Shown here: one piece after another, positions 10,486 to 56,345 of the stretch | How positions within the stretch are numbered: the stretch's first letter is position 1 | Layout of the letters: the number at the start of each line of letters is the position of its first letter | DNA from: a virus | Direction: 5' to 3' (one strand) | DNA length: 64,000 bases | Virus record (IMG/VR): IMGVR_UViG_3300036768_001490 | Span: 62,001-126,000 of that record | Notes under the pieces: generated by a model | The model's database searches: none | Told to the model about the DNA's origin: nothing | Seen by the model: the letters and a program-made list of their open reading frames with translations, nothing else | Program-made: the position numbers and the translations under genes

Positions 10486-13400
10486 TTACCAGCCAAAGGT
10501 CTCGCGGAACTGGCGTCTCCAGTGCAGGGGATTGAGCGCCGGCAGCGTTCTGCCGCCCGTGCCTGGAATGACCGCATTGCCTGTCAAATAGTCATCCCAG
10601 CCGGCCGCGGGACGCGAAAGAACGTCAACGATAAATTCAGTAGCATTGACAGCTCGGCGGAGGCCCTTGGTGTCCTTGGTGCCCTTCGCGTTCTCTTCAG
10701 CTAGCGCGCCAGCTAGAGCGTCCCTGACCAAGGTGGCCTCTTCCAGCATCTTCCCTCCCGTGAGCGGGTTCAGCGCTTCCTTGCGCTCCTCGTGACTGAA
10801 CGGGTTGATCATCTTGTGCCCCATCGCCATGTAAGTGAGGGACTGGGTGGGCGAAAGTTTGGAACTTTCTATGACAAGCTGGGCAGGCGTCTTGGTCTTG
10901 GCAATTTCCACATCGCGGATGAATTTCTCTTCCTGTTGGCTCAAACTTTCTCCTCTGGCCTTCTTGGCCTTGAGCCTCTCTGCTTCGGGGATGTCCTTTT
11001 CATGCAGTTGCTTCATCACGATCTTCTCGGCCTCCGTGGCAATGCCTTCCGCCTGCGCTGACATCGTCGTGCCGGCCGTGTGGATGTCCGCGACCGTCTT
11101 GGTAATGTTCTTAATCAGGTTCATGCTGCCTTCTGGGTTGTTGCTGTCCCGCTCAACGCGCGTGATCCCCTTGAACAGCCGGTGGAGCGAGTCGGCGACG
11201 ACGTTGCCCAGGGGGCCGTAATCCTTCGCACGCTCGTCTTCACTCAGCTGCAGTGCCGGCGTGAACGCGAAGGGGTCCACCGCGTTTCCACTCGCCAGCT
11301 CGCCTCGCCGGAGCCTGTCAGCCTGGTGTTTCCGGATGAGATTGCCAACGGCCGCCTGCGCCTCGAAGTGCTTGCCGATGTTCGACTCGGACGTCAGCTT
11401 GCTCTTGGCGGCGCCGTCGTCTGCCTGATCTTCGGACAGTGCCCGGTACAGGTCTTTGAAAAGGTTGTAACCCTCCACGCCCAGCTGGGCCCCTCCTTCC
11501 AGCATGATACGGCCGGTGTTGACGTGGTTGGAGCGAATGCCAAGTGCCGTGAGCAAGTTCATGCCCGGCTGCTGCCGCCACTTGTACAAGTCGAACAGGT
11601 CGGCCGTTCCCTGGATGGCCTTCTGGTTCTCGCTGCGGAACTTTCCCTCGGACGAGAGCAGCCGGTCCCAGCCGCCCTCTTGCCAGTCCTCCAGAATGTT
11701 GCTTCCGGCTTCGCCCAGGCCAGCGATAATAGCCGCAGGATTGACGACATATTTGCCTAGCCAGCCGGCCACGTTGAGCATCTTCGTGCCGCCGGACGTC
11801 AGTCCTCCCGCCGCGTTGAGGAGCCGAGCCGTAGTTCTTTCGCCCAGCAGGCGTTTCGCCACGTTGCTGGACGCTAGCCAATTCAGGGCCGTGCCGGTGC
11901 CTTGCATTCCACTGCCGGAAATCGAGGACAGCGCCTGCACGCCGGAAAACGGCAAGGACGCCAGGCTGACATAATTGTGCCACTTGAGCTGATTGTCGTC
12001 TTTCTTGCCTGCTGCCTCTGCATTATTGCTATTGTTTACGGCGGCGTCGCTATTGTTTACGACAGCATCTTCATGGCCACGGCCCAGGTCGAAGGCCAAG
12101 TAGGCCGGCGGCACAGCATACTGGTGGGGCGAGTGGGACGATTGGGAATACGGGTGGGGCAAGTGGGGCGATTGGGAGAAATCGTAGCTGAAGGTCCGCG
12201 GGCCGGTGACGTAGTCACCGTAGTCAGGCTGCTGCTGGCTGTTCTCGCCGGGACGTCCCGTCCCAGGCAGGTATCCTGGCGGCACCGGTCTGCCCTGTCC
12301 CTGCTGGCCTGGTCCAAAGGGCTGGTACTGGTACTGGCCGCGCACGTAGGGGCTCCGGCTGGTCAGGACATGGATCGCGTTCGGGTCCAGCAGGGAGCCG
12401 AAGCGGATGGCAGAGCCGACCAGGCCGCCGAAGCCAGAGTTGGGATCGTTCGGGTTGCCGCCGCCGCGGACAAACATGGCGGCCTGACGCGGATCGTCGT
12501 GCTGCCACATCATGGGTCTGCCCCGCGTGTACTCCCCCTGGTGCGGCGCGTACTGGTAGGGCTGGTACATGGTGGCGGGAGTGCGCACGACGCCGCGGAA
12601 CGGGTCTGGATTCCGGACAGAGGTTGGGCGGGTGGCCCCGGCGGTATGGGAGTTCCCTGCTGGCTGTGCCGCCGGCTTCGCCCCGCCGGAAGGATTCGCT
12701 CCGCCAGAGGCCGCCACCGGCTTGCTGCTGTCCTTGTTGTCGTCGGCGGCGGACTTGCCGAAGAACTGCGCCTCCGCCTGCCGCAGCAGGGCGTCCGCTT
12801 CCTGCCGCTGCGCTTCCTGGTCCCAGGACGACTTGTACCAGCCGCGGAAGATGCGGGACAGCATGCTGCCGCCCTCGTCGCTGCCGGCAGCTGCCGGAGG
12901 AGGTAAGTCGAGCGCCAGGCCGTCCGTGGCTACTAGCCGCGGTGCCGTCTTTCGCCGCGCCCCTCCCCGGGCGCTTTCCTCCATGCCGTCGGGAACGGTC
13001 CCCGGCTCCGGCTGACGTACCGGTCCGACCAGGCCGAAGTCCGAGGCCCTGGCCAGACCCGGCACGAAGCTGGTGCCGGACTCGTCCCAGCCGCGCCCCC
13101 GGTGGACGGCCTCCAGCAGGCCACCCTTGATGCCGGAGCCGTACATGCGCGCCAGGACGTCCGGGTCGTGCTGGAGAGAGTACATGCCGCGGATCATCTC
13201 GCCCTGGAACGGCGGCGGCTCGTCATGGACGACTACCCGCCGGATGCCGAACTGCTGAAGTTCCCGGATGACGCTGGGACGGACCCGGGTGCCGATGGTG
13301 TAGTGCAGCACCGGCTTCTCCAGGTACTTGCCGACCGCGCGGCGCACGTCCAGCTCCTGGTGGCCGGCGCGGGGCTGGTAGTTGTATTCCAGCGTGGCGT

Positions 13401-15372
13401 AGGGCACCACGTCGTCCGGCAGGTTCCCGCCGAACTCGTCCGTCAGGCGGACGTGGTTGATAAGGCCGCGGGCCAGGATTTCCACGTTGCGGCGGTTGAC
13501 CTTCAGCCCGGCCGACCGCATGGCGTCCGTGTAAGCCTGGACAAAGTAGCGGCGCCCCTCGCCGATGCCCTTGTGCTGCACGATCAGGTGTGGCTGCGGG
13601 ATACCGTCACTGATGACGTCACCGGCCTCGACCGTGTCGCCAGGACGGACCCGCAGGTTGAAGCCGGCGCCGACGTAGTGCCGGGTGCCGTTGATCCAGA
13701 CAAACTTGCCTCCGGCCGGAGCGTCCTCGATGCGCTCCACCGTGCCATCCTCGGTCGCGTGCGCTGCTCCGCCGCGGAACACCTTGGGCACCTGGATCAG
13801 CTGGTTAATGTACTGGAAACCGCTCACGGCCTTCTCACGTCCGGCCACGCCACCGCTGTGCTTGGCCGAAAGCTGCGCCTGCGACAGCGGCTCCGACAGG
13901 GCCTGGGCGGCGGTGAGGCCAACCTGCTCGCCGCGGCCAGGCAGAACGCCGCGTTCACGCACACCAACGTCCCGTGCGTAAACACCACCATCAGGACTGC
14001 CGCCCACCACCGGACTTCGCACAAGAATGCGAGCATGGCCTCTCCGCCGGATGTCCTTGAGAATCTTTGGCGTCAGCACCGTGTTCTTCCGGTACGGCCC
14101 CACGTCCTGAGCCAGCAGGGCGCCCTCGTTGTCCGGGTCGTCCACGTCCACGGGAAGTCCGCGCGGCGTCGGGTCGTCCCGCGGGTCTTCCTCGTCCACT
14201 ACCACCAGGCGGTGCGAGACCTGGTTGAGCTGCTTGCTGTTGGACACGACCATGCCGTTGGCCAGCACGAACAGGTGGTCCGGGTGGTCCACTTCGATGT
14301 CATAGGTCGGCCGCCAGCCGACTTCTTCCCGCCGCACCAGGCGGCACAGCAGGACGTGCCTGTCCACCGGCCGCCGCGGCTCCTCTCCGTACCCGACCCC
14401 GGCCGGGACAAGGGCCGGCTGCCGCGGCCTCGCCGCCACCAGGCGGAGGCCGGCAGCTGCCACCTGACGCAGCGGCAGCAGGAGGTAGGGACGTCGTCCT
14501 CCCGGCGGCGCTGCCAGGACACGGTGGTCCTCTGTCGCCTCGATGGTGATGGCGGCCCTGCCGGCGCGGAAGACGTACCGCCAGACCCGGCGGAGACCGT
14601 GGACAAACAGGGCCCGGACCCGCGTGGGGAACGTCCGTCCCCGCCGGTCGGCACCGAGGACAAGGTCGCCGGGACGCAGCTGCTCGATGGGGACGGAAGT
14701 CCCTTCCGGCCGGCACACCTGCGTTCCTTCCGCCAGGCACAGGAAACCGGCGTCCTGCGTGGAAAACTTGGTCGCCATGACGCCCTTGCGCGCCCCGTAG
14801 GTGCCTGCCCAGTATTCGACTGGCCGGTAGCCCTCGCTGTAGGACGACAGGATCGGCAGAGGCAGCACGTCGTCGCGGTGGTCGGCGAAGAGCAGGCCGG
14901 TGCCGCGCAGCTCCGCCAGGTTCATGGCGTTGCCGCGCGAACCGGACAGCACCTGGAAGGCCAGTGGGTTTTCCTCCCGCAGCGATTCCTGGTAGACCTC
15001 GTCTGGAATCTTCTCGGCCGCGCGGCCCACGGTCAGGACCAGCAGGTCGTTCCGCTGCCGGTCGGTCAGCCGGTCGTCGTCAAGGATCTTCTTGACCTTG
15101 GACCACAGTTCCCGTTGCTTCCGACGGGCAATCTCGGACTTGGCCATGTGCCGCAGGCCGAAGGAGAAGCCGCCCGTCTCCGACGCGGCCTGGCGGCCGA
15201 TGTCCGCCAGGTGCTTGCTAACGTCGCGGTATCGCTCCGTATGCTTCCGCGCCAGCTGGCGCAGCAACTCCGCCATGCCCTTCTTGTCCAGGACACGCTG
15301 GTAGTCGCGCAGGTCTTCTGGCAACGTCTCGTTGACCAGGAGCTGCCCCATGCTGGTGCGTAGAACTGGCAT
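10486..15372 (-). CDS. rpoC (C-terminal part): RNA polymerase beta' C-terminal part with a mini-intein, fused to a virion-like extension
   Basis: The start at 15372 (MPVLRTSMGQLLVNETLPEDL) sits four bases after the previous stop. The first part matches beta' beyond the catalytic loop: LLVNETLPEDL, SGSRGNAMNL, PILSSYSEGY and EYWAGTYGARKG. A 167-residue intein follows, then GLTAAQALSEPLSQAQLSAKHSGG (in two pieces, the trigger-loop region) and the C-terminal clamp up to about residue 780. After that come about 850 residues unlike any polymerase: Gly/Pro/Gln/Tyr-rich linkers (YQPYQY, PGQQGQGRP), small hydrophobic segments and long helices ending WRRQFRETFGW. The extension resembles the other virion-like proteins here. 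No stop or frameshift separates the two halves, so this is one polypeptide; an in-virion role is inference. Confidence 0.85.
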   Translation of the reverse strand: MPVLRTSMGQLLVNETLPEDLRDYQRVLDKKGMAELLRQLARKHTERYRDVSKHLADIGRQAASETGGFSFGLRHMAKSEIARRKQRELWSKVKKILDDDRLTDRQRNDLLVLTVGRAAEKIPDEVYQESLREENPLAFQVLSGSRGNAMNLAELRGTGLLFADHRDDVLPLPILSSYSEGYRPVEYWAGTYGARKGVMATKFSTQDAGFLCLAEGTQVCRPEGTSVPIEQLRPGDLVLGADRRGRTFPTRVRALFVHGLRRVWRYVFRAGRAAITIEATEDHRVLAAPPGGRRPYLLLPLRQVAAAGLRLVAARPRQPALVPAGVGYGEEPRRPVDRHVLLCRLVRREEVGWRPTYDIEVDHPDHLFVLANGMVVSNSKQLNQVSHRLVVVDEEDPRDDPTPRGLPVDVDDPDNEGALLAQDVGPYRKNTVLTPKILKDIRRRGHARILVRSPVVGGSPDGGVYARDVGVRERGVLPGRGEQVGLTAAQALSEPLSQAQLSAKHSGGVAGREKAVSGFQYINQLIQVPKVFRGGAAHATEDGTVERIEDAPAGGKFVWINGTRHYVGAGFNLRVRPGDTVEAGDVISDGIPQPHLIVQHKGIGEGRRYFVQAYTDAMRSAGLKVNRRNVEILARGLINHVRLTDEFGGNLPDDVVPYATLEYNYQPRAGHQELDVRRAVGKYLEKPVLHYTIGTRVRPSVIRELQQFGIRRVVVHDEPPPFQGEMIRGMYSLQHDPDVLARMYGSGIKGGLLEAVHRGRGWDESGTSFVPGLARASDFGLVGPVRQPEPGTVPDGMEESARGGARRKTAPRLVATDGLALDLPPPAAAGSDEGGSMLSRIFRGWYKSSWDQEAQRQEADALLRQAEAQFFGKSAADDNKDSSKPVAASGGANPSGGAKPAAQPAGNSHTAGATRPTSVRNPDPFRGVVRTPATMYQPYQYAPHQGEYTRGRPMMWQHDDPRQAAMFVRGGGNPNDPNSGFGGLVGSAIRFGSLLDPNAIHVLTSRSPYVRGQYQYQPFGPGQQGQGRPVPPGYLPGTGRPGENSQQQPDYGDYVTGPRTFSYDFSQSPHLPHPYSQSSHSPHQYAVPPAYLAFDLGRGHEDAVVNNSDAAVNNSNNAEAAGKKDDNQLKWHNYVSLASLPFSGVQALSSISGSGMQGTGTALNWLASSNVAKRLLGERTTARLLNAAGGLTSGGTKMLNVAGWLGKYVVNPAAIIAGLGEAGSNILEDWQEGGWDRLLSSEGKFRSENQKAIQGTADLFDLYKWRQQPGMNLLTALGIRSNHVNTGRIMLEGGAQLGVEGYNLFKDLYRALSEDQADDGAAKSKLTSESNIGKHFEAQAAVGNLIRKHQADRLRRGELASGNAVDPFAFTPALQLSEDERAKDYGPLGNVVADSLHRLFKGITRVERDSNNPEGSMNLIKNITKTVADIHTAGTTMSAQAEGIATEAEKIVMKQLHEKDIPEAERLKAKKARGESLSQQEEKFIRDVEIAKTKTPAQLVIESSKLSPTQSLTYMAMGHKMINPFSHEERKEALNPLTGGKMLEEATLVRDALAGALAEENAKGTKDTKGLRRAVNATEFIVDVLSRPAAGWDDYLTGNAVIPGTGGRTLPALNPLHWRRQFRETFGW
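14239..14739 (-). mobile_element. Mini-intein in RNA polymerase beta'
   Basis: The element is 167 residues with no endonuclease domain. It begins with Cys1 (CLAEGTQVCRPEG) directly after the extein STQDAGFL, contains a block-B-like TEDHRVL, a block-F-like TYDIEVDHPDHLFVLANG and ends VVSN before Ser+1 (SKQLNQ). The penultimate residue is Ser rather than His. It interrupts the beta' region just after the EYW-GARKG motif, a highly conserved site. Confidence 0.85.
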
Positions 15373-15374
15373 GG

Positions 15375-15794
15375 TCACTTCACCCACACCCTCTGGCCGT
15401 CAGCCAGGCGCAGGCAGCGCGACCGAGGGGAGAACAACCAGATGGTGATGCGCGGCTGGTTTGCCATGCATACCTCGCGGCAACGCCATACATGGTGCTC
15501 GTCCTGGCTGCTGGACACCAGCAACAGGACCACAGGCAGGCGTCGGGAGCGGGCGCCGTAATAGAGGGACTTACCCACTGCCTCGGCCCAGTCGGGTGCC
15601 CAGGCCACGGCGACGGCATGGTGAGGGGTCAGAAGGTCGATGCGCGTGCCGTCGTAGTTGCTTGCCCCGGCCTGGGCCGGCAGGCCGCTGGAGGTCAGGC
15701 TGGCTGCCAGGCATCCAGCCCAGTCCTCCTCTTCGGGAACGTTGCCGCCGGTCAGCAGGCGGCGCAGCCACGACCGGAAGTGCTGGAGCATCAC
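15375..15794 (-). CDS. Degenerate PD-(D/E)XK nuclease-like protein
   Basis: The protein has 139 residues. The order YDGTRIDLLTPHHAVAVAW, then WAEAVGKSLYYGARSRRLP (both cited in part), then a hydrophobic VVLLLV strand, follows the core of small PD-(D/E)XK endonuclease-like domains, where one expects D, then E-x-K on the next strand and a Q/K-LYY helix. Here the Asp of RIDLL and the LYYGA helix remain, but the strand expected to carry E-x-K reads AVAVAWAP, so the key acidic residue and lysine look absent. It is probably a non-catalytic relative. It lies between two unknown genes within the polymerase block. Confidence 0.5.
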   Translation of the reverse strand: MMLQHFRSWLRRLLTGGNVPEEEDWAGCLAASLTSSGLPAQAGASNYDGTRIDLLTPHHAVAVAWAPDWAEAVGKSLYYGARSRRLPVVLLLVSSSQDEHHVWRCREVCMANQPRITIWLFSPRSRCLRLADGQRVWVK

Positions 15795-18381: not shown

Positions 18382-20136
18382 TCAACCTCCCAGGATCTCG
18401 ACAGGGGTGTCCACTGTGATTTCACCGCGCCGATAGGCCCGGATGGCATCCTGGCGGGAACGGAACACGCGCGGGCGCTTCCTTGACACGGAGCGCCGCC
18501 GGGTGGACTCGTACAGCCCGCCCAGGTACTCCTGCCCCGGCATGTGTACCGGCGACTGGAAGTCCGCCGGCGAGAACAGGGACCGGCTGGGCAGCAGCCG
18601 GTCGTATGCCTCCTTCACCGCCTCCGGCGACGTCGGCACGTGGAACTGCATGGCGTCGCCGTCGAAGTCGGCGTTGAACCCCTTGGTCACGAGGGGGCTC
18701 AGGTGGATGGTGTTTCCGCTTACCAGCCGGGGGCGAAAGGCCAGGATGCCGAACTTGTGCAGCACGGGGGCCCGGTTGACGTACACGGGGCGCTCTTCCA
18801 TTTCCTCTTGCATGATGGAGCGGGCCAGCGGCGTCCGCTCCCGGACGTGGCGCAGGGCCTCGCGGATCGGCAGGCCGCGCCGCCGGAGCCGGCGGACGAT
18901 GAACTTGCTGTAGACGTCGAACGCCTGGTTCTCCGGGATGCCGATGGAGTCCATGTCCATGTCCGGGTCCGGCGTGATGACGGCCCGGCCGACGTTGTCC
19001 ACGGTGGTGGAGAGCAGCTTGCGCTGCATCGTGCCGAACTTGGGGGATTCTCCGAAGATGCTCTTCAGGATCCCACTGACGCCCTTCTCCTGGAGCTTGG
19101 GGTGCATGGGCTCGCCGAGACCCACGACGGCCTGGAAGGCGTGGTAGACGGCCAGGCGCTCGGGGCCCGCGTTCTTCTTGCCCACCTGCTTGACCATGTC
19201 GTTGTAGTTGCGGATGGCGTCCAGCAGCTCCTTGTACAGGTAGTTGGGGTCCGATATAAGCGGGATGCCCGTGTCTCCCAGCATGGACACGGGCCGGAAG
19301 GCAGGCGGCAGCACGGGCACCCGATGCAGCACCCAGTCGCGCGGGTGCAGGCCGAGCTTCTTGGCGCTGTCCAGGTACTGCCAGCGACGGATCGCCTCGT
19401 CCCGGTGGGAAGCGCGGCCGTACCGCCACTCCGCCCGGGCCTTGTCCAGCTCCTTGTCCAGGTCCAGCTGGTCCAGCGCCTTGGCCACGGCCTGGGGTCC
19501 GCTGCCGTACCCCGGCAGAGACTCGTCTCCGGCCAGCACCGCCTCGAACTTCTTCTGCGTCAGGCCCAGGATGCGGCGGATCGGCTCCTCCATGACCGGG
19601 TTCGGCAGCGGCTCGGGCAACTCGATGGCGGCCCAGCGCCGGCCGCCGTGTCCACCCGTCAGTTTGGGGTCAAACAGGCCGCCGGGGATGGGACTCATGT
19701 TGTCGTCGAAGCGCACCAGCTCCCCGGAACGGATGATGCGGTTGCCTGCCAGCTCCTTGACGTCCTGGTCCGTCAGGGCCATGACGTTTGCCCGGTGCCC
19801 GTCCGGGACGACATTGATGCCTGCCGCCTTCAGCTGGTGGACGAACTTATCGTACACGTAGGGCACCTTGGGCTTCACCGGCGTGAAGCCCAACATGAAC
19901 TGGAGCCAGAACTGTTCGTTCTTCTGTCCCCGGATGAGGCGGGCGTCCCGGAGCGTCTCCGTGGCCCCGTGGGACATCAGGGCGTTGACGTCCAGCATGG
20001 ACAGCCTCTTCGAGTTGCTGACGAGCACGCCGCAGACCGCGTACAGGTGGACGTCAGCGACCGTGATGTCGTAGACATCGGCCAGGCTGTCCCTGCCGGC
20101 AGACGGACAGTATGGCCGGACCTCCCTGACGCGCAT
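18382..20136 (-). CDS. rpoB-rpoC (central part): IntC of a split intein, then RNA polymerase beta C-terminus fused to beta' N-terminus
   Basis: Residues 1-41 are the C-terminal half of an intein (SLADVYDITVADVHLYAVCG, then VLVSN). Ser42 opens the extein SKRLSMLDVNALMSHGATE, matching the beta C-terminus after GEM (compare cellular GEMEVWALEAYGA). From about residue 111 the sequence is beta': RIIRSGEL, PGGLFDPKLTGG, IELPEPLPNPVMEEPIRRIL, APVLHKFGILAFRP and the Mg-binding NADFDGD at 488-494, so catalysis is likely intact. It ends after VDTPVEILGG, near the point where cyanobacterial beta' is split. The missing remainder is at 10486-15372. Maturation needs trans-splicing with the upstream gene, 31 bp away. 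Confidence 0.92.
   Translation of the reverse strand: MRVREVRPYCPSAGRDSLADVYDITVADVHLYAVCGVLVSNSKRLSMLDVNALMSHGATETLRDARLIRGQKNEQFWLQFMLGFTPVKPKVPYVYDKFVHQLKAAGINVVPDGHRANVMALTDQDVKELAGNRIIRSGELVRFDDNMSPIPGGLFDPKLTGGHGGRRWAAIELPEPLPNPVMEEPIRRILGLTQKKFEAVLAGDESLPGYGSGPQAVAKALDQLDLDKELDKARAEWRYGRASHRDEAIRRWQYLDSAKKLGLHPRDWVLHRVPVLPPAFRPVSMLGDTGIPLISDPNYLYKELLDAIRNYNDMVKQVGKKNAGPERLAVYHAFQAVVGLGEPMHPKLQEKGVSGILKSIFGESPKFGTMQRKLLSTTVDNVGRAVITPDPDMDMDSIGIPENQAFDVYSKFIVRRLRRRGLPIREALRHVRERTPLARSIMQEEMEERPVYVNRAPVLHKFGILAFRPRLVSGNTIHLSPLVTKGFNADFDGDAMQFHVPTSPEAVKEAYDRLLPSRSLFSPADFQSPVHMPGQEYLGGLYESTRRRSVSRKRPRVFRSRQDAIRAYRRGEITVDTPVEILGG
20014..20136 (-). mobile_element. Split intein, C-terminal half (IntC)
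   Basis: Forty-one residues at the start of the beta/beta' gene include a block-F-like DVYDITVADVHLYAVCG and end VLVSN before Ser+1. The length and the Ser-Asn ending resemble naturally split DnaE-type inteins, whose IntC is about 35-40 residues. The partner IntN is the last 98 residues of the preceding gene. Confidence 0.88.
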
Positions 20137-36885: not shown

Positions 36886-37686
36886 TCAGACCAGGTCGTC
36901 TGCCAGCAGGCAGTCCCGGACGTCCGAGGGTACGCAGCGCAACAGGCTGTCCAGGTTCGCAATGCGCTCCCGGACCCGGTTGCGGTTGCGTAGGCGGCGG
37001 CAGCCCGGGACCGCCCGGTCCGCGCAGGAAGGCAGCTCCAGGAAGTCAAATACCCGCTGCATCTCCCTCTGATAGTCCCGCAGCAGGTCACGGTACTGCA
37101 CCTCCAGACGGTCGGCGCAGGAGGCCCGGACCTTGCCCAGGGTGGCGGCGTGGCAGCGGCAGAACTCCGTCACCTCGTCCGCGTCCAGGTGGACCGGAGC
37201 AGGACAGGCCGCCGGCGCCGCGTCCCAGCCGCGCGTCCACACACCGGAGCGCTCGGCCTGCTTGAGGCTCACCAGGCAAGCCACCGGATTGCGCAGGACA
37301 ACGACCAGGCAGAAGTCCCCCTCGCGGTAACGCGACTCGAACAGCTCCCACAGCTCCAGCCGGCGCACGTCCGGGTACAGCACGCGGAAGCCGACCGCGC
37401 GCTCCCCCCGAAGGGGACGGTCCAGGATGACATGGTTGATGTACTGCCAGGGGGACGTCACGCCTTCCTGGAACCACTCCGGCAGGTGCCGCGGCCACCG
37501 GCTGGGGCCGAAGTATTCCTCGTGGCTGGCCCGCCGGACCTTCTCGTCCGGGTGAAACAGGTCGCCGTGGCAGACCGCGACGTGCCCCGGACGGTTGTTC
37601 AAGGTGGACTGGACCACGCGGGAGCCGCTGCGCACTTCGCCCACGACCACGTAGTTCAGGACGCGGACGTCCTGTCCTAGCAACAC
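36886..37686 (-). CDS. Sulfotransferase-like protein
   Basis: The GTG start at 37686 has GGGGGG upstream. Of 266 residues, VGEVRSGSRVVQSTL near the N-terminus fits the 5'-phosphosulfate-binding loop of PAPS-dependent sulfotransferases, CLVVVLRNPVACLVSLKQ fits the 3'-phosphate-binding strand, and RLEVQYRDLLRDYQREMQ plus VFDFLELP fits the C-terminal helix of Stf0-type enzymes. Such enzymes move sulfate from PAPS to sugars or other acceptors. The loop RSGSRVV lacks the usual 'T' and 'K', so activity needs testing. Its place among glycosyltransferases suggests sulfated glycans. Confidence 0.65.
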   Translation of the reverse strand: MLLGQDVRVLNYVVVGEVRSGSRVVQSTLNNRPGHVAVCHGDLFHPDEKVRRASHEEYFGPSRWPRHLPEWFQEGVTSPWQYINHVILDRPLRGERAVGFRVLYPDVRRLELWELFESRYREGDFCLVVVLRNPVACLVSLKQAERSGVWTRGWDAAPAACPAPVHLDADEVTEFCRCHAATLGKVRASCADRLEVQYRDLLRDYQREMQRVFDFLELPSCADRAVPGCRRLRNRNRVRERIANLDSLLRCVPSDVRDCLLADDLV

Positions 37687-39569: not shown

Positions 39570-39649
39570 TAGGCCAGCTTCGACTTTTCTGCCAGGACGG
39601 ACCTGGGCTCCACCACCCCCACACCCACCTATTCCAGCCAGCCCTACAC

Positions 39650-39742
39650 CAGCCGAAAGCGACCACAAGAAGACATGCCTTGCTGATAGCTAAGAAAAAG
39701 AACGACGCCCCAGCCGATCCGCTTCCTGCGAATCGGCTGGGG
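39650..39742 (-). repeat. Cassette repeat R0 (partial) with terminator
   Basis: The left-most, partial copy of the intergenic repeat. It contains GCGACCACA-AGA-ACATGCCT and TAGCTAAGAAAAAGAACGAC as in the other copies. The terminator (39708-39742) has 15-base arms, CCCCAGCCGATCCGC and GCGAATCGGCTGGGG, with one mismatch, followed by a T-rich run (TTCTTTTTCTTA) on the minus strand. It closes the 151-residue gene. Confidence 0.8.
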
Positions 39743-39747
39743 AGAGA

Positions 39748-39775
39748 GGAGTAGTCACTACATGGTGACTACTCC
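39748..39775 (-). repeat. Stop-codon hairpin of cassette A
   Basis: Arms GGAGTAGTCAC and GTGACTACTCC, 11 bp perfect, loop six bases; the stop codon of gene A is in the right arm. Analogous hairpins end genes B and C. Confidence 0.75.
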
Positions 39776-40224
39776 ATCACAGCCCTAACCTCCTCCATGA
39801 CGATGGAGGATGCCTTCATCCAGCGGATGAAGGCATCAAAAGAACTCGCTCTTTTGATGCCTTCCCTGGCCAGCTCCAACCTCCATCCTGGCGGACCATG
39901 CGTACCGTCCACCTGGATGGTCTCCCCACCCAGGCGGAACATTATCTTCCCATCCCTCGATGGGAAGAATGCAGCCCCCCCACTACCCTCCGTCAGCATC
40001 CTTGCCATTTCCGAGACAATCCTGTTCCCTTCCTGGGTTCTCACCTTCTCCCAGCCCCATAGGGCCGGGTGGTGACACTTCCTTTCCCTCCCGGCCAAGT
40101 CGGCCAGGAGGATGACCGCTACGTGGTGGTCGACGCCTTGGCGTCGACCTCCACGCCCTTGGCGGGAGATAATATACTCCTCTGCCGCTTGGCGGAGGAG
40201 TCCAAAGGTATTGGTGGTGGACAT
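39769..40224 (-). CDS. Cassette gene A, hairpin-rich paralogue of gene B
   Basis: The 151-residue protein has AAAGGAGG eight bases upstream of its ATG. Its core (AVILLADLAGRERKCHHPALWGWE, quoted in part, then RIVSEMARML and GPPGWRLELAREGIKRASS) aligns with cassette gene B over HPA-WGW, RI and GPPGWRL-AREG, so the two are diverged paralogues. No enzyme motif or membrane helix is seen. The coding DNA contains at least eight perfect hairpins, including arms of 13 bp (39809-39837), 12 bp (39832-39861) and 11 bp over the stop codon (39748-39775). Function unknown. Confidence 0.7.
   Translation of the reverse strand: MSTTNTFGLLRQAAEEYIISRQGRGGRRQGVDHHVAVILLADLAGRERKCHHPALWGWEKVRTQEGNRIVSEMARMLTEGSGGAAFFPSRDGKIMFRLGGETIQVDGTHGPPGWRLELAREGIKRASSFDAFIRWMKASSIVMEEVRAVME
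40128..40149 (-). repeat. Ten-base palindrome in gene A
   Basis: Arms GGTCGACGCC and GGCGTCGACC with only TT between, inside the coding sequence of gene A. Confidence 0.75.
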
Positions 40225-40254
40225 AAGAGTCCCCTCCTTTGCGGCATCTAGCCG

Positions 40255-40542
40255 CAGTTGTGTGGTAATAAAAATTGGACAGGAACGTCCTGTCCACCTT
40301 TTGTGACATCAATGGAGAAGATATTTAGGCAGGAGGCGGAGCACCCTGGTCAGAGCAGGGAGCATGGCGCAGGTAGCGCGCCTGAGCCTGATGGGAAGTA
40401 CACTGGCCTGATTGGTGGGAAACGTCTCCCGTGCTTGCTGACCCACGCCAGACGAAAGCGACCACAGGAAAACATGCCTGGCTGATAACTAAGAAAAAGA
40501 ACGACGCCCCAGCTGGTCCGCTTCCTGCGGATCGGCTGGGGA
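40255..40542 (-). repeat. Cassette repeat R1: leader of gene A and terminator of gene B
   Basis: About 280 bases shared with R2 and R3 at roughly 90% identity by eye. From right to left it carries the terminator of gene B (arms near 40507-40541, minus-strand run TTCTTTTTCTTAG), a conserved core of about 150 bases with an AT-rich CTAAATATC block, and the leader hairpin GGACAGGA/TCCTGTCC (40277-40295) just before the Shine-Dalgarno of gene A. Confidence 0.85.
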
Positions 40543-40544
40543 AG

Positions 40545-40573
40545 AGGAGTAAGCCGCTACGCGGCTTACTCCT
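40545..40573 (-). repeat. Stop-codon hairpin of cassette B
   Basis: Arms AGGAGTAAGCCGC and GCGGCTTACTCCT, 13 bp perfect, loop TAC. It contains the stop codon of gene B. Confidence 0.8.
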
Positions 40574-41102
40574 TTCGGATCTCTTCCGTGATACTCCTCA
40601 CGACCGTACTCCAGATGGGTAGGTCATGAGGGATGGATATTACGTGAATCATTCTAAGTTGGGGTGGATACCCCGCTGATCGGAGTAGCCCTTCACGGGC
40701 TACTCTTAACCTCCATCCTGGAGGTCCGTGCTCGCGGCCGAGCAGTACCCTGCGTCCGTCATCCGTGACGAACACCAGCCTTTCTATCTCGGGGTGAAAT
40801 ACCCCGCCGTAAAACGGCGGCGATCCCCCTACGCTGCAGCGTCTTGCGACGGCCCGGATCGCCATCGACCATACCTCAATCCTTGCTTTGGGCTGTTGGC
40901 CGCTGCCCCAGCCCCAGAAAGCCGGGTGGCGTGCGCATCCCTCCTCTTCTCCGGCCATGTCAAGCATGGCGATGGCCGCAGAGTGTGCTGCAAGCTCCTC
41001 CGAGGAAACGTCTTTGCGATCCAGCCCGGCGAGGCGTAGGTAGTATTCCTCGGCCATGTTTGCCGCCATTATGAACCTGGTGGTTTCGTGATGGGACATC
41101 AT
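40566..41102 (-). CDS. Cassette gene B, paralogue of gene A
   Basis: The 178-residue protein has AAAGGAGG before two adjacent ATGs. Residues about 40-75 (AAIAMLDMAGEEEGCARHPA, then FWGWG) and GPPGWRLRVAREGLLRSAG match cassette gene A; the middle WSMAIRAVARRC resembles a stretch of the 27628-28035 protein. There is a Gly-rich loop (GGSPPFYGGVFHPEIER) and no membrane segment. The coding sequence holds hairpins such as arms of 13 bp over the stop codon (40545-40573) and 9 bp at 40683-40705, and an ACGCTGCAGCGT palindrome (40831-40842). Function unknown. Confidence 0.7.
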   Translation of the reverse strand: MMSHHETTRFIMAANMAEEYYLRLAGLDRKDVSSEELAAHSAAIAMLDMAGEEEGCARHPAFWGWGSGQQPKARIEVWSMAIRAVARRCSVGGSPPFYGGVFHPEIERLVFVTDDGRRVLLGREHGPPGWRLRVAREGLLRSAGYPPQLRMIHVISIPHDLPIWSTVVRSITEEIRKE

Positions 41103-41124
41103 GGTGTCCTCCTTTGCGGCTGTG

Positions 41125-41419
41125 CCGCAGTTGTGTGGTAATAAAAATTGGACAGGAACGTCCTGTCCGCGGCATTTATTGTGACATCAATGGAGAAGAT
41201 ATTTAGGCAGGATGTGAAGCACCCTGGTCAGGGCAGGGAGCATGGCGCAGGTAGCGCGCCTGAGCCTGATGGGAAGTACACTGGCCTGATTGGTGGGAAA
41301 CGTCTCTCGTGCTTGCTGACCCACACCAGCAGGAAGCTACCGCGAGAAAACACGACGGGCTGATAGCTAAGAAAAAGAACGACGCCCCAGCCGATCCGCT
41401 TCCTGCAGATCGGCTGGGG
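41125..41419 (-). repeat. Cassette repeat R2: leader of gene B and terminator of gene C
   Basis: A second full copy of the repeat. Terminator arms CCCCAGCCGAT (41385-41395) and ATCGGCTGGGG (41409-41419) are followed on the minus strand by a T-rich run. The leader hairpin GGACAGGA/TCCTGTCC is at 41150-41168. The central 150 bases are nearly identical to R1 and R3. Confidence 0.85.
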
Positions 41420-41428
41420 AGAGAGAGA

Positions 41429-41460
41429 GAGGAGTAGTCACCGAGTAGTGACTACTCCTC
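41429..41460 (-). repeat. Stop-codon hairpin of cassette C
   Basis: Arms GAGGAGTAGTCAC and GTGACTACTCCTC, 13 bp perfect, six-base loop. It contains the stop codon of the HEAT-repeat gene. Confidence 0.8.
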
Positions 41461-42366
41461 TTCTTTCTTGCCGCCAATCCTCCTCATGGCCTCGGCGACG
41501 GACTGTCGTACTCTTTCGTTTTGGTCCAGCCTATACCTGTTCAAGGCTGGCACGGCGTCCTTGCCGTCCGGGCCGAGCTTGCCGATGGCCTTGCACACAT
41601 GCTCTCGGATCATCCTGTTCTCGAGGGCTTTGACAAGAACCGGCAGCAAGGCCCTACCCTTGGAGGGGAAATCATCCACGATCTCCCCGAGGACCTCGAC
41701 CGCTGCTACCTGGGCGATATAGTGAAAGTAACCCGAACTAGAGTTCGGGTCGGATGAGATCAGCTTGACCATCATGGCGACCGTTTCGCCATCGTCCGGC
41801 GACACGGCGCCAAGGGCCTTGACCAGGCCCCTCACGTTTACGGTCTTGCTGTCCAGGCAGCGCTGAAGCGCTGCCCTCATAAGCGGGGCAAGCGGCCGAG
41901 CACCACGCTTCATCTCTTTGACTTCGTCGGCCAACGCCAGCAACTCTCTTGGCTGGCCGACTGCAAAGACGACCGCGTACTTGTACAGGTCTGGGCGAAC
42001 CTGCCGCAACGCTTTGGCGGCAGCCTGCACAACCTCCTTGTTGTTAGCCGACACCGCCATCGCCTCACACAGGGCATAGGCAGACTCCTCTTCCCTGGAC
42101 TTTGCCAATGCCTTGGCGGCGATCTTCTCGGCATCCGTACCTTCATGGCGCGCAATGGCTTCCTTGCACTTGGCCTTCGCCTGCTCTCCTCTCACGTCGC
42201 AGCCGCAGCCGCATTGCCAACCTAGCTTGGCCGCTGCACATGCCCCGATCACCATCCCGATCACCACTCCGAGCAGCAGGGCGGGAATGATGCCCTTGCT
42301 GCGGGAAGTTGCCGGCTGCAGCAGCACGACTACCTTGCACGAGTCGAGGACGAAGATGGTGTTCAT
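41452..42366 (-). CDS. Cassette gene C, membrane-anchored HEAT-repeat protein
   Basis: The 304-residue protein has GGGGAG before its ATG. A hydrophobic helix at residues about 27-50 (IIPALLLGVVIGMVIGACAA) is followed by a cysteine cluster (CGCGCD) and then HEAT/armadillo-like helical repeats (for example VAAVEVLGEIVDDFPSKG, then AIGKLGPDGKDAVPALNR, then ERVRQSVAEAMRRIGG). Such repeats form curved scaffolds for protein binding; the helix suggests it faces the membrane. The coding DNA again has perfect hairpins at 41731-41750 (9 bp), 41774-41792 (7 bp) and 41856-41875 (9 bp). Function unknown. Confidence 0.7.
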   Translation of the reverse strand: MNTIFVLDSCKVVVLLQPATSRSKGIIPALLLGVVIGMVIGACAAAKLGWQCGCGCDVRGEQAKAKCKEAIARHEGTDAEKIAAKALAKSREEESAYALCEAMAVSANNKEVVQAAAKALRQVRPDLYKYAVVFAVGQPRELLALADEVKEMKRGARPLAPLMRAALQRCLDSKTVNVRGLVKALGAVSPDDGETVAMMVKLISSDPNSSSGYFHYIAQVAAVEVLGEIVDDFPSKGRALLPVLVKALENRMIREHVCKAIGKLGPDGKDAVPALNRYRLDQNERVRQSVAEAMRRIGGKKEEE

Positions 42367-42414
42367 AACGAACTCCCCAAATGGGCGACGCCCAACTGAC
42401 GCACATGCGTCAGT

Positions 42415-42694
42415 CGTGGTTAGATTGGACAGGAACGTCCTGTCCGCGGCATTTATTGTGGCACCAATGGAGAAGATATTTAGGCAGGAGGCGGAGCACC
42501 CTGGTCAGGGCAGGGAGCATGGCGCAGGTAGCGCGCCTGAACCTGATGGGAAGTACACTGGCCTGGTTGGTGGGAAACGTCTCTCGTGCTTGCTGACCCA
42601 TGCCAGCCGGAGGCTACCACGAGAAAACATGCCGGGCCGATAGCTAAGAAAAAGAACGACCCCAGCCGATCCGCTTCCTGCAGATCGGCTGGGG
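42415..42694 (-). repeat. Cassette repeat R3: leader of gene C and terminator of gene D
   Basis: The third full copy. The leader hairpin is at 42427-42445; the conserved core and CTAAATATC block follow; terminator arms CCCCAGCCGAT (42660-42670) and ATCGGCTGGGG (42684-42694) close gene D. The copy differs from R1 and R2 at scattered positions only. Confidence 0.85.
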
Positions 42695-42709
42695 GGAATG
42701 CGGGCAGCC

Positions 42710-42856
42710 CTAAACGGGCCACCCGCAGGTGGGACACTCCTCCGTGAAACACGGAGGAGTGTCCTCACCGCAGTGAGGACACCTGTCGGCCCCCACTGCC
42801 TCCTCCTCATCGAGGAGGATGTCGTCGTCGTACTCGAAGTCGTAGTAGTACATCAT
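42710..42856 (-). CDS. Cassette gene D, 48-aa zinc-ribbon protein
   Basis: This gene is too small for routine gene finding. Its two adjacent ATGs follow AAGGAGGGG. The product is 48 residues: an acidic N-terminus (YYYDFEYDDDILLDEEE) and a CPHC-x9-C-x4-CPTC-type zinc ribbon (RCPHCGEDTPPCFTEECPTC in part), ending GWPV. The spacing of the four outer cysteines fits a rubredoxin-like zinc knuckle used for protein or nucleic-acid binding. The coding DNA is dominated by three perfect hairpins (15, 10 and 8 bp), two of which share an arm. It occupies the same repeat-flanked layout as genes A-C. Confidence 0.7.
   Translation of the reverse strand: MMYYYDFEYDDDILLDEEEAVGADRCPHCGEDTPPCFTEECPTCGWPV
42732..42764 (-). 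repeat. 15-bp perfect hairpin in gene D
   Basis: Arms GGACACTCCTCCGTG and CACGGAGGAGTGTCC with loop AAA. Its right arm overlaps the left arm of the next hairpin (42759-42782). Confidence 0.85.
42759..42782 (-). repeat. 10-bp hairpin in gene D, exclusive with the 15-bp one
   Basis: Arms GTGTCCTCAC and GTGAGGACAC with loop CGCA. Because it shares bases 42759-42764 with the previous hairpin, both cannot form at once in full. Confidence 0.8.
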
Positions 42857-42879
42857 TTCCCCTCCTTAAGGGATAACGT

Positions 42880-42945
42880 TTATTGGACAGGTACGTCCTG
42901 TCCACCTTTTATGACACCAGTGGAGGGGATATTTAGGCGGGGAGG
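42880..42945 (-). repeat. Cassette repeat R4 (partial): leader of gene D
   Basis: A short copy with the leader hairpin (42885-42903, variant loop), the ATGTC-like bases and the CTAAATATC block, before the sequence changes to the terminator of the metacaspase gene. Confidence 0.7.
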
Positions 42946-43043: not shown

Positions 43044-43847
43044 TCAGAACAGGGGAGTATTCCGAAGCGCCGGCAGCGCGTTAAGCTGAGGCGTCTGCTG
43101 GAAGTCCCAGGAGGGCAAATACTGCCGCAACTGGCGGAAAACGTCCTGATACGTGCCGCCCCGCGACTGCACCAGCCGGAAGGCACGCAGGGCGTAATAG
43201 GTCATGGCGCCGCAGAAGCGGCCGCCAATCCGCGCGTCCGCGCTGTACTCATGGTCCCGGCAGGCCGAGAAGTGAATGACGCCAGGCAGAGGCTGGTCCT
43301 GCCACCGGACCTGCTGGCCAAAGGCGCGCTCCATGCCATGCCACAACGGACTGTCGGGCGAAAGGAAGTGGGACGGCGGCAGGAAACGGACCCTCCGCTC
43401 CGACACGCTGCTGTCCGTGGCGAAGCGGAAGACCGAGCCCGAATGGCAGCAGTCACTGATCCAGAGCAGGCGCGCTCCCGGACGCAGCCGGCCAAACAGA
43501 TCGGCCAGTTCGTCGTCCAGGATCAGGTTGCGGCCATTGTCGCCCATGTCCGCCGGGCACAGCGCCTCGTCCCGGCCGTCCGGCTCGTCCCCGGAGAGGT
43601 CCGGCAGCCAGGTGCCGTGGCCAGAATACGTCACGGCGCTGCACGTGCCCGGCGACGTCTGGTCGATGACCTGCCGCAGGGCCGTCAGGATGTTACAGCG
43701 GCTGGCCTGGCGCTCCAGCATGGAGACGACGTCGAAGCCCTGGCCATGCAGGAAGCTGCCCCAGTCGTTGGCATCGTTGATGCAGCCGCGCAGCTCAAAC
43801 GGAGTGCCCGTGTAATTGATGCCGATGCACAGTGCCTTGCCCGACAT
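43044..43847 (-). CDS. Metacaspase-like cysteine peptidase (C14)
   Basis: The 267-residue protein opens KALCIGINYTGTPFELRGC and follows the p20-like caspase-fold order: VTYSGHGTWLPD with His77, GRDEALCPAD with an Asp suited to the basic S1 pocket, and LLWISDCCHSGSVF with catalytic Cys134. The His-Cys dyad is intact. The C-terminal part (HFSACRDHEYSADA, then GAMTYYAL) looks like the p10-like region. Metacaspases usually cut after Arg or Lys and act in proteolysis or cell-death-like processes. It has its own terminator and GAGGAGGG ribosome site. It is a rare find in phage and may process virion or host proteins. Confidence 0.8.
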   Translation of the reverse strand: MSGKALCIGINYTGTPFELRGCINDANDWGSFLHGQGFDVVSMLERQASRCNILTALRQVIDQTSPGTCSAVTYSGHGTWLPDLSGDEPDGRDEALCPADMGDNGRNLILDDELADLFGRLRPGARLLWISDCCHSGSVFRFATDSSVSERRVRFLPPSHFLSPDSPLWHGMERAFGQQVRWQDQPLPGVIHFSACRDHEYSADARIGGRFCGAMTYYALRAFRLVQSRGGTYQDVFRQLRQYLPSWDFQQTPQLNALPALRNTPLF

Positions 43848-43899: not shown

Positions 43900-43915
43900 C
43901 TAAAAAACGGATTTT
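43900..43915 (-). repeat. AT-rich 16-mer, copy 2 (inverted)
   Basis: AAAATCCGTTTTTTAG on the minus strand, identical to 15803-15818 but opposite in orientation; it overlaps the 3' end of the small membrane-protein gene. Confidence 0.6.
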
Positions 43916-44156
43916 ACCGGGCAGACGGCTGGACCGGGGCATCTCCCCCGCTTCTGGCCGCCGACGTCTCCCGATCCGTCGGCGGCCGGCTGGCCGGCGG
44001 CCAGCCACGGAACCAGACGCCCAGGTAGTAGCAGACCTGGGCCAGTACCGTCCCGGCCACGAACAGCAGCACAAGCCCGAGGACCAGGACGCTGAGGCTG
44101 AAGGCCATCTGGCTCAGCGCGGGCCACTTCCCGTAGGCTTCCAACCACCTGTCCAT
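43914..44156 (-). CDS. Small single-pass membrane protein, 80 aa
   Basis: The start at 44156 (MDRWLEAYGKWPALSQ) has GGGGG seven bases upstream and lies below a good promoter. The product has one strong hydrophobic helix (residues about 20-45, LSVLVLGLVLLFVAGTVLAQ) and a polar tail of about 28 residues with GVWFRGWPPAS. I associate this type with small planctomycete and phage membrane proteins of unknown role. It precedes the metacaspase, and the two may be co-transcribed. Confidence 0.55.
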   Translation of the reverse strand: MDRWLEAYGKWPALSQMAFSLSVLVLGLVLLFVAGTVLAQVCYYLGVWFRGWPPASRPPTDRETSAARSGGDAPVQPSAR

Positions 44157-44870: not shown

Positions 44871-45512
44871 CTAGTTATGCACGAACAGCGTGGCGCGGAC
44901 CTTCACGACCAGCCGGGGGCCAGCTACCCGGACCAGCCGGTCGATCCAGTCGCCGTCCGCGTTGAACGATGTCTTGTCGAAGGGCACCCGCCGGGCCAGC
45001 GCCGCCGCCACCAGCAGGCCGCCCAGGTCCAGGTGCCGGTAGCGCGGCTGAGTGACCAGCGGCTGCCACAGCCGATGGCTATGGACCATGTCGCAGTAGG
45101 CCAGCTGGGCCGGAGGCCGCGCCGCCGTGGCCTCGGCCAGCAGCCACTCCAGGAAGACCGGGGCGTACCAGTTGTCGTCGTTGGTCAGCAGCAGCCACGG
45201 ACACGTCCCCGCCAGCTCCTCGATGGCGCGCTGCCGCCAAGGGTGGCCGAACTGCTGCTTCCGGCTGGGCGTCTCCACCAGGGACAGGCGGGAGTCGCGG
45301 GCCGCTTCCTGCTCCCATTCCCGCCGGACGTCCGCGCTGGCCGGCCCGTCGTGGTAGGCCACCAGCCGCCAGTGGGGGTAGGTCTGAGCCTGGAAGGAGG
45401 CCAGCAGGGAACGCAGGGCGGCGCGGCGGCGCGGCTCGTCGTTGAGATAGGTGGCGACTCCGATGCCGACCGTGGGCGTGCCCCGGACCTGCTTGCTCCG
45501 CCAGTAGCGCAC
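44871..45512 (-). CDS. Family 2-like glycosyltransferase, 213 aa
   Basis: The GTG start at 45512 has GGGAGG five bases upstream. The fold reads VGIGVATYLNDEPRRRAALR, then FQAQTYPHWRLVAYHDG and PWLLLTNDDNWYAPVFLE, where the NDDN motif is the metal/donor site of GT-A enzymes. The end (FNADGDWIDRLVRVAG) may form the acceptor side. At 213 residues it is short for the family, so it could be a single-domain enzyme. Gene order with the methyltransferase and Maf-like genes suggests one glycan pathway. Confidence 0.7.
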   Translation of the reverse strand: MRYWRSKQVRGTPTVGIGVATYLNDEPRRRAALRSLLASFQAQTYPHWRLVAYHDGPASADVRREWEQEAARDSRLSLVETPSRKQQFGHPWRQRAIEELAGTCPWLLLTNDDNWYAPVFLEWLLAEATAARPPAQLAYCDMVHSHRLWQPLVTQPRYRHLDLGGLLVAAALARRVPFDKTSFNADGDWIDRLVRVAGPRLVVKVRATLFVHN

Positions 45513-45534: not shown

Positions 45535-46146
45535 TCAGGGGCGCAGCGTCACCTCCACCATGCGGATGTCCAGGCCCGTGTGGGTGAAGTGGTCCACCGG
45601 GTCCAGCAGGACCACCTGGTAGCGCTCCCGGTCCAGGCCGTTCACCAGGGGGCGGCAGCCAAAGTCGTCCCGTCCCTCGTAGTAGTCGTCCAGCAGGACA
45701 AGCGTGTGCGGCCCCATGACCCGGGCGACAGCGCCCCAGTCCGAGGCCACCGTGTCCAGGCTGTGCCCGCCGTCCAGGAAGATCAGGTCCGGCCGGATGT
45801 CCGTGTGCTTCGACCAGGGAACCAGCCGGTCGCGCGTGAAGCCCTTGAACAGCGTGACCTGGGCGCCCGTGGCCAGCAGCCGGAGCTTGACCTCGCTCTC
45901 GCGCGGCGGCAGGCGCTCCTTGGACAGCTCCGCCCGCGCGATCTCCGGCGTGCATAGCTCGAACAGGTCGAAGCCGATGTAGTGGGCCGTGCGGCCGGCG
46001 CTGTCCTTCAGCCAGGTGCTGAGCAGCTGGCTGGCGCGCACGCCGTCGTACGTCCCCACCTCCAGGAAGACCAGGTGCTTCCGCCCGCTCCGGCCGATCC
46101 GGTCCAGGGCACGGAACAGGTGGACATACCTTCCTAGCATGGCCAT
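45535..46146 (-). CDS. SAM-dependent methyltransferase-like protein
   Basis: The start at 46146 is chosen because GGAGG lies about nine bases upstream. Of 203 residues, HLVFLEVGTYDGVRASQLLS is the SAM-binding motif I, HYIGFDLFELC follows, and DLIFLDGGHSLDTVASDW is the DGGH-type motif of methyltransferase-24 family enzymes. It should move a methyl group from S-adenosylmethionine; many relatives act on sugars or antibiotics. Its neighbours suggest sugar methylation. Confidence 0.7.
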   Translation of the reverse strand: MAMLGRYVHLFRALDRIGRSGRKHLVFLEVGTYDGVRASQLLSTWLKDSAGRTAHYIGFDLFELCTPEIARAELSKERLPPRESEVKLRLLATGAQVTLFKGFTRDRLVPWSKHTDIRPDLIFLDGGHSLDTVASDWGAVARVMGPHTLVLLDDYYEGRDDFGCRPLVNGLDRERYQVVLLDPVDHFTHTGLDIRMVEVTLRP

Positions 46147-54659: not shown

Positions 54660-56345
54660 CTAAATCTCGACTGCCTTGACCATGTCCACGAACCGCTGGC
54701 TGTCGTCAGCCAGGTGCGCGGCCATGACCTCAAAGACCACGTCGCTGAAGCCGCCGATATTCAGCGTTTCGGCAGTCTCCGGGGCCTGGGAGCTGCCGCC
54801 CATCTGCAAGTCACAGCAGATGAGCTTCGGCCGCGGAAACCGACCCAACCGCCGCTGGTTGGCCACAAACTTATCCCACTCATGCACGAGTGCCGTGACA
54901 CAGTGGAACATCCTCACTGACGGCGTTACCCAGCTCTGATTGTCAGAGATCAGGATAACACCGCAGAACGCCCGATCCTTGAGTTTCTCGTTGGCGTGCG
55001 CAACCGGCAAATGGCAGTCGGTGCCGCCACCGCCGAAGCGCGAAAGCCGAGTCGAGATGCTCAGAATCTGATCGCCCGGGTCAGCGCTGAACGGACGGAC
55101 CCAGTCGCTGAATGGCACGACGACCGAGTCGGGATTCTTGCGCAGAATCGCTGCTGAGATCAGCGCCGCCACGTCGATGCACCGCATCTTCGAGGACTGC
55201 CCCGGCTTGTCACGGCGTCCCGTGATCGGCGCAAGCATGGAACCGGAGACGTCGCAGCCAATGACGACAGGGCCAGGGAACTTCGGCACCGCCTCGCACG
55301 CCACCTCCGCGGCATCGTTGAGGGCCTTGCGGATGCAGTACGGGATCTCCTCGCTGGCGTTCAGATACGCCGCGAAGAACTGGTACGGCATCTGCTTGGA
55401 CCGACGGACCTCGTTCATGTCGGCAAGACGGCTGGCCACCTCATCGACCATGCGCGGGTCCCGGAATACACCGTGGCGGTTGAGCGTATTCAGGTTCATG
55501 CGCAACGCCTGGTAGCCCATGTTCCTGGCTATCTCCGCCCACACCGGACTCGGACGGACCAGGCGCCGGGTGGCGCCACAACCCTCGTACACCTCGCCCT
55601 TGACCGCGTCCACCAGGAGATCCCAGCGGATGTAGGTCTTGGCGAACTGCCGCGCAAGCTGCACCTGCTCGTCCGGGTCCGTGGTGCCGCGGAACCGGTC
55701 GAGCAGCCGGATCTCCAGCGGGAGATCGTCGTAGGTAGCCGGCCTCCACTTCTCGACCGGATTGCCGCACAGCCAGCCATACAACGCGCGACGGGCATTG
55801 TTGGGCGGCGTCGGCCGCACCAGGCGCAGCACGTCGCGCAACGACGGGTTCTTGCCGACCGAGGCCGACAGGAGCTTGTCGTCGCTAGCGTTGTTCAGCA
55901 GCCTGGACATGACCCGCTGCTTGGCGTGGCTGAAGCACCGCTTCCTGGTGCCGGCGCCGCTGCGCACCATCTGGAAGGCCGTCAGGATCATCTTGCCACT
56001 GTCCACGACACGGTCAGCAATCCGGTCCCACAGCTTGATGTCCATATCGGCGAGCTTCGCCCAACCCGCCGCCGGGGCGTCCTTGAGCAAACCGTCCCGA
56101 CGCGCGGCAATGCACGCCTTGGCCAAGAACTCGGGCGTCACGCACGCTGCCAGCTCGTGAAACCTGGCAAGCTGCTCGGCGCCGCTCTCGTAGTACGCCC
56201 CGTTGAAGCAGGACGTGAACAGGAACTGTGCCAGGGCATGTTCGGACCCGTAAGCGTAAGCCGAGCCGCCAGCCTGATTGATGGCATCAACCGGGCGGTC
56301 AACCAGGGCGGACGAACTGGTGCCGAAGAGGGACTTGCTGGCCAC
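54660..56345 (-). CDS. rsr: TROVE-domain protein with vWA (Ro60/Rsr-like)
   Basis: The GTG start at 56345 follows AAGGAGG with an eight-base spacer. The 561-residue protein has HEAT-like helical repeats of a TROVE ring (for example LARFHELAACVTPEFLAKAC, RFRGTTDPDEQVQLARQFAK, QALRMNLNTLNRHGVFRD) and a vWA domain with MIDAS residues DVSGSM (365-370) and a GGGGTD motif near 435. Ro60-type proteins bind misfolded RNA and small Y RNAs and take part in RNA quality control with exoribonucleases. It has its own promoter, an upstream structured RNA candidate and its own terminator. Confidence 0.9.
   Translation of the reverse strand: MASKSLFGTSSSALVDRPVDAINQAGGSAYAYGSEHALAQFLFTSCFNGAYYESGAEQLARFHELAACVTPEFLAKACIAARRDGLLKDAPAAGWAKLADMDIKLWDRIADRVVDSGKMILTAFQMVRSGAGTRKRCFSHAKQRVMSRLLNNASDDKLLSASVGKNPSLRDVLRLVRPTPPNNARRALYGWLCGNPVEKWRPATYDDLPLEIRLLDRFRGTTDPDEQVQLARQFAKTYIRWDLLVDAVKGEVYEGCGATRRLVRPSPVWAEIARNMGYQALRMNLNTLNRHGVFRDPRMVDEVASRLADMNEVRRSKQMPYQFFAAYLNASEEIPYCIRKALNDAAEVACEAVPKFPGPVVIGCDVSGSMLAPITGRRDKPGQSSKMRCIDVAALISAAILRKNPDSVVVPFSDWVRPFSADPGDQILSISTRLSRFGGGGTDCHLPVAHANEKLKDRAFCGVILISDNQSWVTPSVRMFHCVTALVHEWDKFVANQRRLGRFPRPKLICCDLQMGGSSQAPETAETLNIGGFSDVVFEVMAAHLADDSQRFVDMVKAVEI

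Follow-up and report, generated by a model that had tools for sequence, protein, structure and literature searches.

A metacaspase of a large tailed phage: active site, inheritance and possible roles in the infected cell

Background

Among the described proteins that lie closest to the one presented here are the bacterial single-domain metacaspases, such as GSU0716 (PDB 3bij), and the type I metacaspases Yca1, CgMCA-I and TbMCA2. For TbMCA2, the residues of the S1 pocket have been described as Cys92, Asp95, Ser156 and Asp211 (PMC4357240), and the calcium ligand Asp245 of CgMCA-I corresponds to Asp220 of TbMCA2 (PMC9622860). The orthocaspases have been reported to be calcium-independent (PMC5756287). 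Metacaspases were first reported from cultured viruses in medusavirus and HaV01, where a role in host death was proposed (PMC6450098). Also, eight metacaspase operons of C. botulinum have been termed phage-related (PMC3501461), and bacterial gasdermin-caspase systems are sometimes located near lysozyme or phospholipase genes (PMC9612521). A literature search that covered few subscription papers returned no paper on the metacaspase of a large phage. Viral metacaspases are already known from giant viruses, and the gene described here is a large-phage case.

The phage protein is 37-46% identical to bacterial single-domain metacaspases (L015-L094 in our locus numbering, and GSU0716), with which it shares the overall architecture, the catalytic dyad, the S1 residues, an Arg or Lys at the position of TbMCA2 Asp220 and an Arg or Lys in the linker. 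It differs from them in being phage-borne, in having no DUF7379-CHAT gene after it and in reading DCCHSG where the bacterial proteins read DSCHSG. With the type I metacaspases it has in common the p20 and p10-like halves, the dyad, the S1 residues and the equivalents of the metal-site residues Asp173, Asp189 and Asp190, but it lacks a prodomain and an arginine, Arg141, replaces the fourth metal-ligand Asp. Like the orthocaspase MaOC1 of Microcystis (PMC5756287), it is prokaryotic, has an acidic S1 pocket and is predicted to be calcium-independent and self-processing; MaOC1, however, is described as having no p10, and the p10-like half of the phage protein places it outside the orthocaspases in the strict sense. 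The metacaspases of medusavirus, HaV01 and Fadolivirus are likewise carried by viruses and provide the closest viral folds, although these giant viruses infect eukaryotes. The C. botulinum operons, likened here by description only, also place a metacaspase in a phage-related context. Gasdermin-caspase systems share the use of a caspase-fold protease in phage-bacterium conflict but belong to host defence, and PADLOC found no gasdermin among six neighbours of the phage metacaspase.

Results

The carrier is a large tailed phage

The window, the whole stretch of 64,000 nucleotides analysed here, comprises positions 62,001 to 126,000 of a virus record of 182,719 bases. Proteins of the carrier match phage tail-fibre, baseplate-wedge, RNA polymerase, DNA polymerase, primase, helicase and ligase families, and counterparts of its core genes are present in other viral records, 168-235 kb in length. 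The carrier belongs to the large tailed phages and encodes a multi-subunit RNA polymerase of its own.

Several further features of the record deserve mention in their own right. One RNA polymerase subunit (10486-15387, minus strand) contains an insert of ~167 residues (217-383) that is absent from the relatives L003 and L113; it resembles a mini-intein, starting with CLAEGTQV and ending in VVSN|S. An RNA polymerase beta'-like ORF (18382-20136, minus strand) begins with what looks like an intein C-terminus (HLYAVCGVLVSN|S). A Ro60/TROVE protein with a vWA domain is encoded at 54660-56345 (minus strand), and among the proteins of the carrier's own record (those of L011-L013 and four window genes) there was one Tubulin/FtsZ match (PF00091, E 2.5e-11), possibly a phage tubulin.

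Gene, family and fold

The metacaspase gene (43044-43847, minus strand) starts with ATG behind a good ribosome-binding site (GAGGAGGGCAGGC-ATG) and encodes a protein of 267 residues, organized as a p20 domain, a short linker and a p10-like half, with neither prodomain nor signal peptide. The match to the Pfam Peptidase_C14 profile scores 88.5 bits (cut-off 21.4; E 7e-25), with positions 2-225 of its 233 covered, and metacaspases of the PDB are matched at E 1e-27. A profile built from 17 relatives retrieved GSU0716, Yca1, AtMC4 and CgMCA-I, all at E 2e-44 or better; a search of PHROGs yielded no family for the protein. The AlphaFold2 model (pLDDT 87.9, pTM 0.88) found metacaspases or GSU0716 in each of the first 29 Foldseek rows, and strands and helices continue in the model up to the C-terminus; together with the Pfam coverage, this shows a p10-like half behind p20. 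A second IMG/VR record carries an identical copy of the gene within 16,801 surrounding bases that show 0 mismatches, the two records possibly coming from related samples. The gene is real, and its matches are far above chance. Pfam, PDB and fold thus agree with the preliminary description, made from the letters alone, of a phage-encoded metacaspase with an intact His-Cys dyad, and both catalytic residues lie where it had put them, His77 in YSGHG (codon 43617-43619) and Cys134 in DCCHSG (43446-43448).

Active site, metal site and linker

Motif and alignment match Cys22, Asp25, Ser75 and Asp132 of the phage protein to the four S1 residues of TbMCA2, so that all four are present, which supports the earlier proposal of an acidic pocket suited to Arg or Lys. 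In an alignment of 46 viral sequences, the window's included, with 27 bacterial homologues, Asp25, Ser75, His77, Asp111, Asp132 and Cys134 are invariant and Cys22 is kept in all sequences but one; the viral loci were picked by patterns spanning both catalytic motifs, so invariance at the motifs is partly built in. Neither Asp25 nor Asp111 is covered by these patterns. An Asp-rich stretch had also been assigned to the S1 site. The acidic run exists (DLSGDEPDGRDE), but it aligns with the metal-binding loop of metacaspases, and the S1 residues lie elsewhere.

The metal site itself is incomplete. Of the ligands Asp173, Asp189, Asp190 and Asp220 of TbMCA2, the first three have counterparts in Asp93, Asp111 and Asp112, but the fourth position, that of CgMCA-I Asp245 and of the calcium-ligand Asp in eukaryotic metacaspases, aligns with Arg141 (codon 43425-43427). 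Arg or Lys occupies this position in 43 of the 46 viral and all 27 bacterial sequences. We infer that the metal is replaced by a basic side chain of the protein itself and, because Arg141 occupies the calcium-site Asp position, the enzyme is predicted not to need calcium. In the linker, position 154 (an Arg in the phage protein, codon 43386-43388) is basic, Arg or Lys, in every one of the 71 sequences that are not gapped at this point; this conservation fits a candidate self-cleavage site, but could be structural.

An accessory gene in one branch of the phage group

A look into related phages, a check proposed at the outset, found the metacaspase kept in L003, a relative of 235 kb. Thirty loci were found through the RNA polymerase alone, the near-identical record among them; none of the other 29, of which most are fragments and nine are records of 168-205 kb, has a Peptidase_C14 match. 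All nine of these large relatives have both core genes tested, and all nine are missing the sulfotransferase gene (36886-37686) as well. A metacaspase does occur in L113, a distant relative with 45-50% identity in the RNA polymerase, directly upstream of the polymerase gene and in a different clade from the window's; it is likely to be a second capture. A single acquisition common to L113 and the window has no support from tree or position, though the L113 branch is long. Because relatives that share the core genes lack the metacaspase, and because L113 has a copy of another clade elsewhere in its genome, the gene is an accessory acquisition in one branch of this group of large tailed phages.

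Within that branch, the gene has diverged at the pace of the core genome: identity between L003 and the carrier is 62% for the metacaspase, 62-63% for the RNA polymerase and 64 and 68% for core genes. Gene order is collinear, the genes at 45535, 44871 and 43914 being followed by the metacaspase and then by those at 37712 and 36886. The two metacaspase genes have pN 0.275 and pS 0.593, corresponding to dN 0.34 and a dS of 1.17 that is near saturation, and hence to a dN/dS of ~0.3. From the equal divergence, the collinear position and this ratio, it follows that the metacaspase was inherited together with the rest of the phage and has been subject to purifying selection. The tree, whose bacterial sequences were sampled near the query only, groups the window and L003 proteins together (100/99), apart from the bacterial clades represented.

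Local genetics

Directly 3' of the gene, a 15-pair stem followed by T's (43012-42979, minus strand) forms an intrinsic terminator, as had been noted. The close promoter noted alongside it did not hold up: we found neither a sigma-70-like site 5' of the gene, a result of little weight where the phage encodes an RNA polymerase itself, nor a promoter motif shared upstream of the phage's genes. The metacaspase starts 66 bp behind a gene for a small protein with one TM segment (43914-44156, minus strand; ~44% identity to its L003 homologue), a possible operon partner, and may be the last gene of an operon. The same accessory stretch contains a glycosyltransferase-like gene (44871-45512, minus strand) that, among the relatives searched, is common only to L003.

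The gene had also been placed next to a cassette array. The adjacency holds (array at 39643-42941), but the array repeats are absent from the gene, and we rejected the metacaspase as a member of the array, there being no repeat copy in front of it. The array itself consists of repeats of about 60-240 nt with a core in four copies, a palindrome (GGACAGGACGTTCCTGTCC) and a shared terminator-like hairpin around small genes, and it resembles repeated promoter-operator units.

Discussion

We favour the reading, to which we give about an even chance, that the gene encodes an active, Arg/Lys-specific, host-directed accessory metacaspase kept by selection, whatever its pathway. The protein would be a cytosolic cysteine endopeptidase that uses His77 and Cys134 to cut after Arg or Lys; with Arg141 filling the metal site it would have no calcium requirement, and it may mature through self-cleavage near Arg154. 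Its targets would most likely be host proteins, so that it would alter the fate of the infected cell rather than mature the virion. Possible effects are the removal of defence or cell-death components, or help in the final destruction of the cell. The triggering or blocking of host death that the preliminary description had suggested would be compatible with the data.

A more specific role in lysis is unlikely but deserves serious weight. Here the protease would act late, together with the lysis machinery, either activating a lytic partner by an Arg/Lys cut or degrading envelope-linked host proteins. Metacaspases are carried at 46 viral loci, some on giant-virus-like contigs; the gene is directly adjoined by an endolysin in four phage loci (L006, L105, L106 and L114), and in two others a patatin-like phospholipase gene lies ~10 bp upstream of it (L097, 6866-7990; L099, 2700-4013). 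The adjacency is suggestive but statistically not firm, the chance of at least four endolysin neighbours being 0.03-0.21 under assumed gene densities. A single type of neighbourhood for the viral metacaspases was rejected, as the neighbours vary (terminase, ParB, endolysin, patatin). The small TM protein encoded directly upstream in the window would suit a lysis role, but small TM neighbours stand at chance level across phage loci (4 of 28, with 3.7 expected), the TM homologue in L003 lies ~5 kb from the metacaspase, and none of the window's genes beside the metacaspase is recognised as a lysis gene.

Somewhat more doubtful is a function in counter-defence, in which the protease would cut or pre-empt a caspase-family or other defence system of the host. 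The accessory distribution speaks for it, and so does the bacterial context: in about 24 of the 80 nearest bacterial homologue loci, a DUF7379-CHAT protein follows the metacaspase, a possible two-gene caspase-family system. This protein is very large and encoded directly after the metacaspase in L015 (6860-12784), and likewise in about 23 further bacterial loci. An Acb2/Tad1 hairpin anti-defence gene adjoins one viral metacaspase on the opposite strand (L124, 8909-9130, minus strand). The phage protein is also matched by the PADLOC 'caspase' model, but this match reflects the shared fold only, and PADLOC found no defence genes adjoining the metacaspase in the window.

It would be a considerably bolder step, and one we think has little chance of being correct, to suppose that metacaspases have been taken up by phages time and again to set off the destruction of the cell by proteolysis, an Arg/Lys cut activating a partner that attacks membrane or wall. 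This would be the phages' equivalent of the caspase-gasdermin pathway of bacteria.

Processing of virion structural proteins, as the preliminary description had suggested, is improbable. Arg/Lys specificity would suit Arg-rich proteins, but the nine large relatives without the gene share the core genes of the structural and RNA polymerase region, and virion maturation is unlikely to depend on a gene that is gained and lost among phages whose core genes are constant. Furthermore, the metacaspase sits among glycosyltransferase and sulfotransferase genes, ~28 kb from the polymerase and structural genes; a role in the virion that is confined to this branch might be accommodated in that the stretch may hold virion- or DNA-decoration genes. 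That the gene has no role, being either a recent acquisition of host DNA or a chimeric assembly, would agree with its absence from most relatives but is highly improbable given the identical copy in another record, the collinear and selected L003 homologue and the intact active site.

Conclusions

On the reading favoured here, a selected accessory metacaspase that is absent from relatives sharing the core genes offers a clean comparison for finding its substrates. If its target proves to be host death, defence or lysis, the gene would connect proteases of the caspase family with phage-host conflict on the viral side, as has been proposed for giant viruses.
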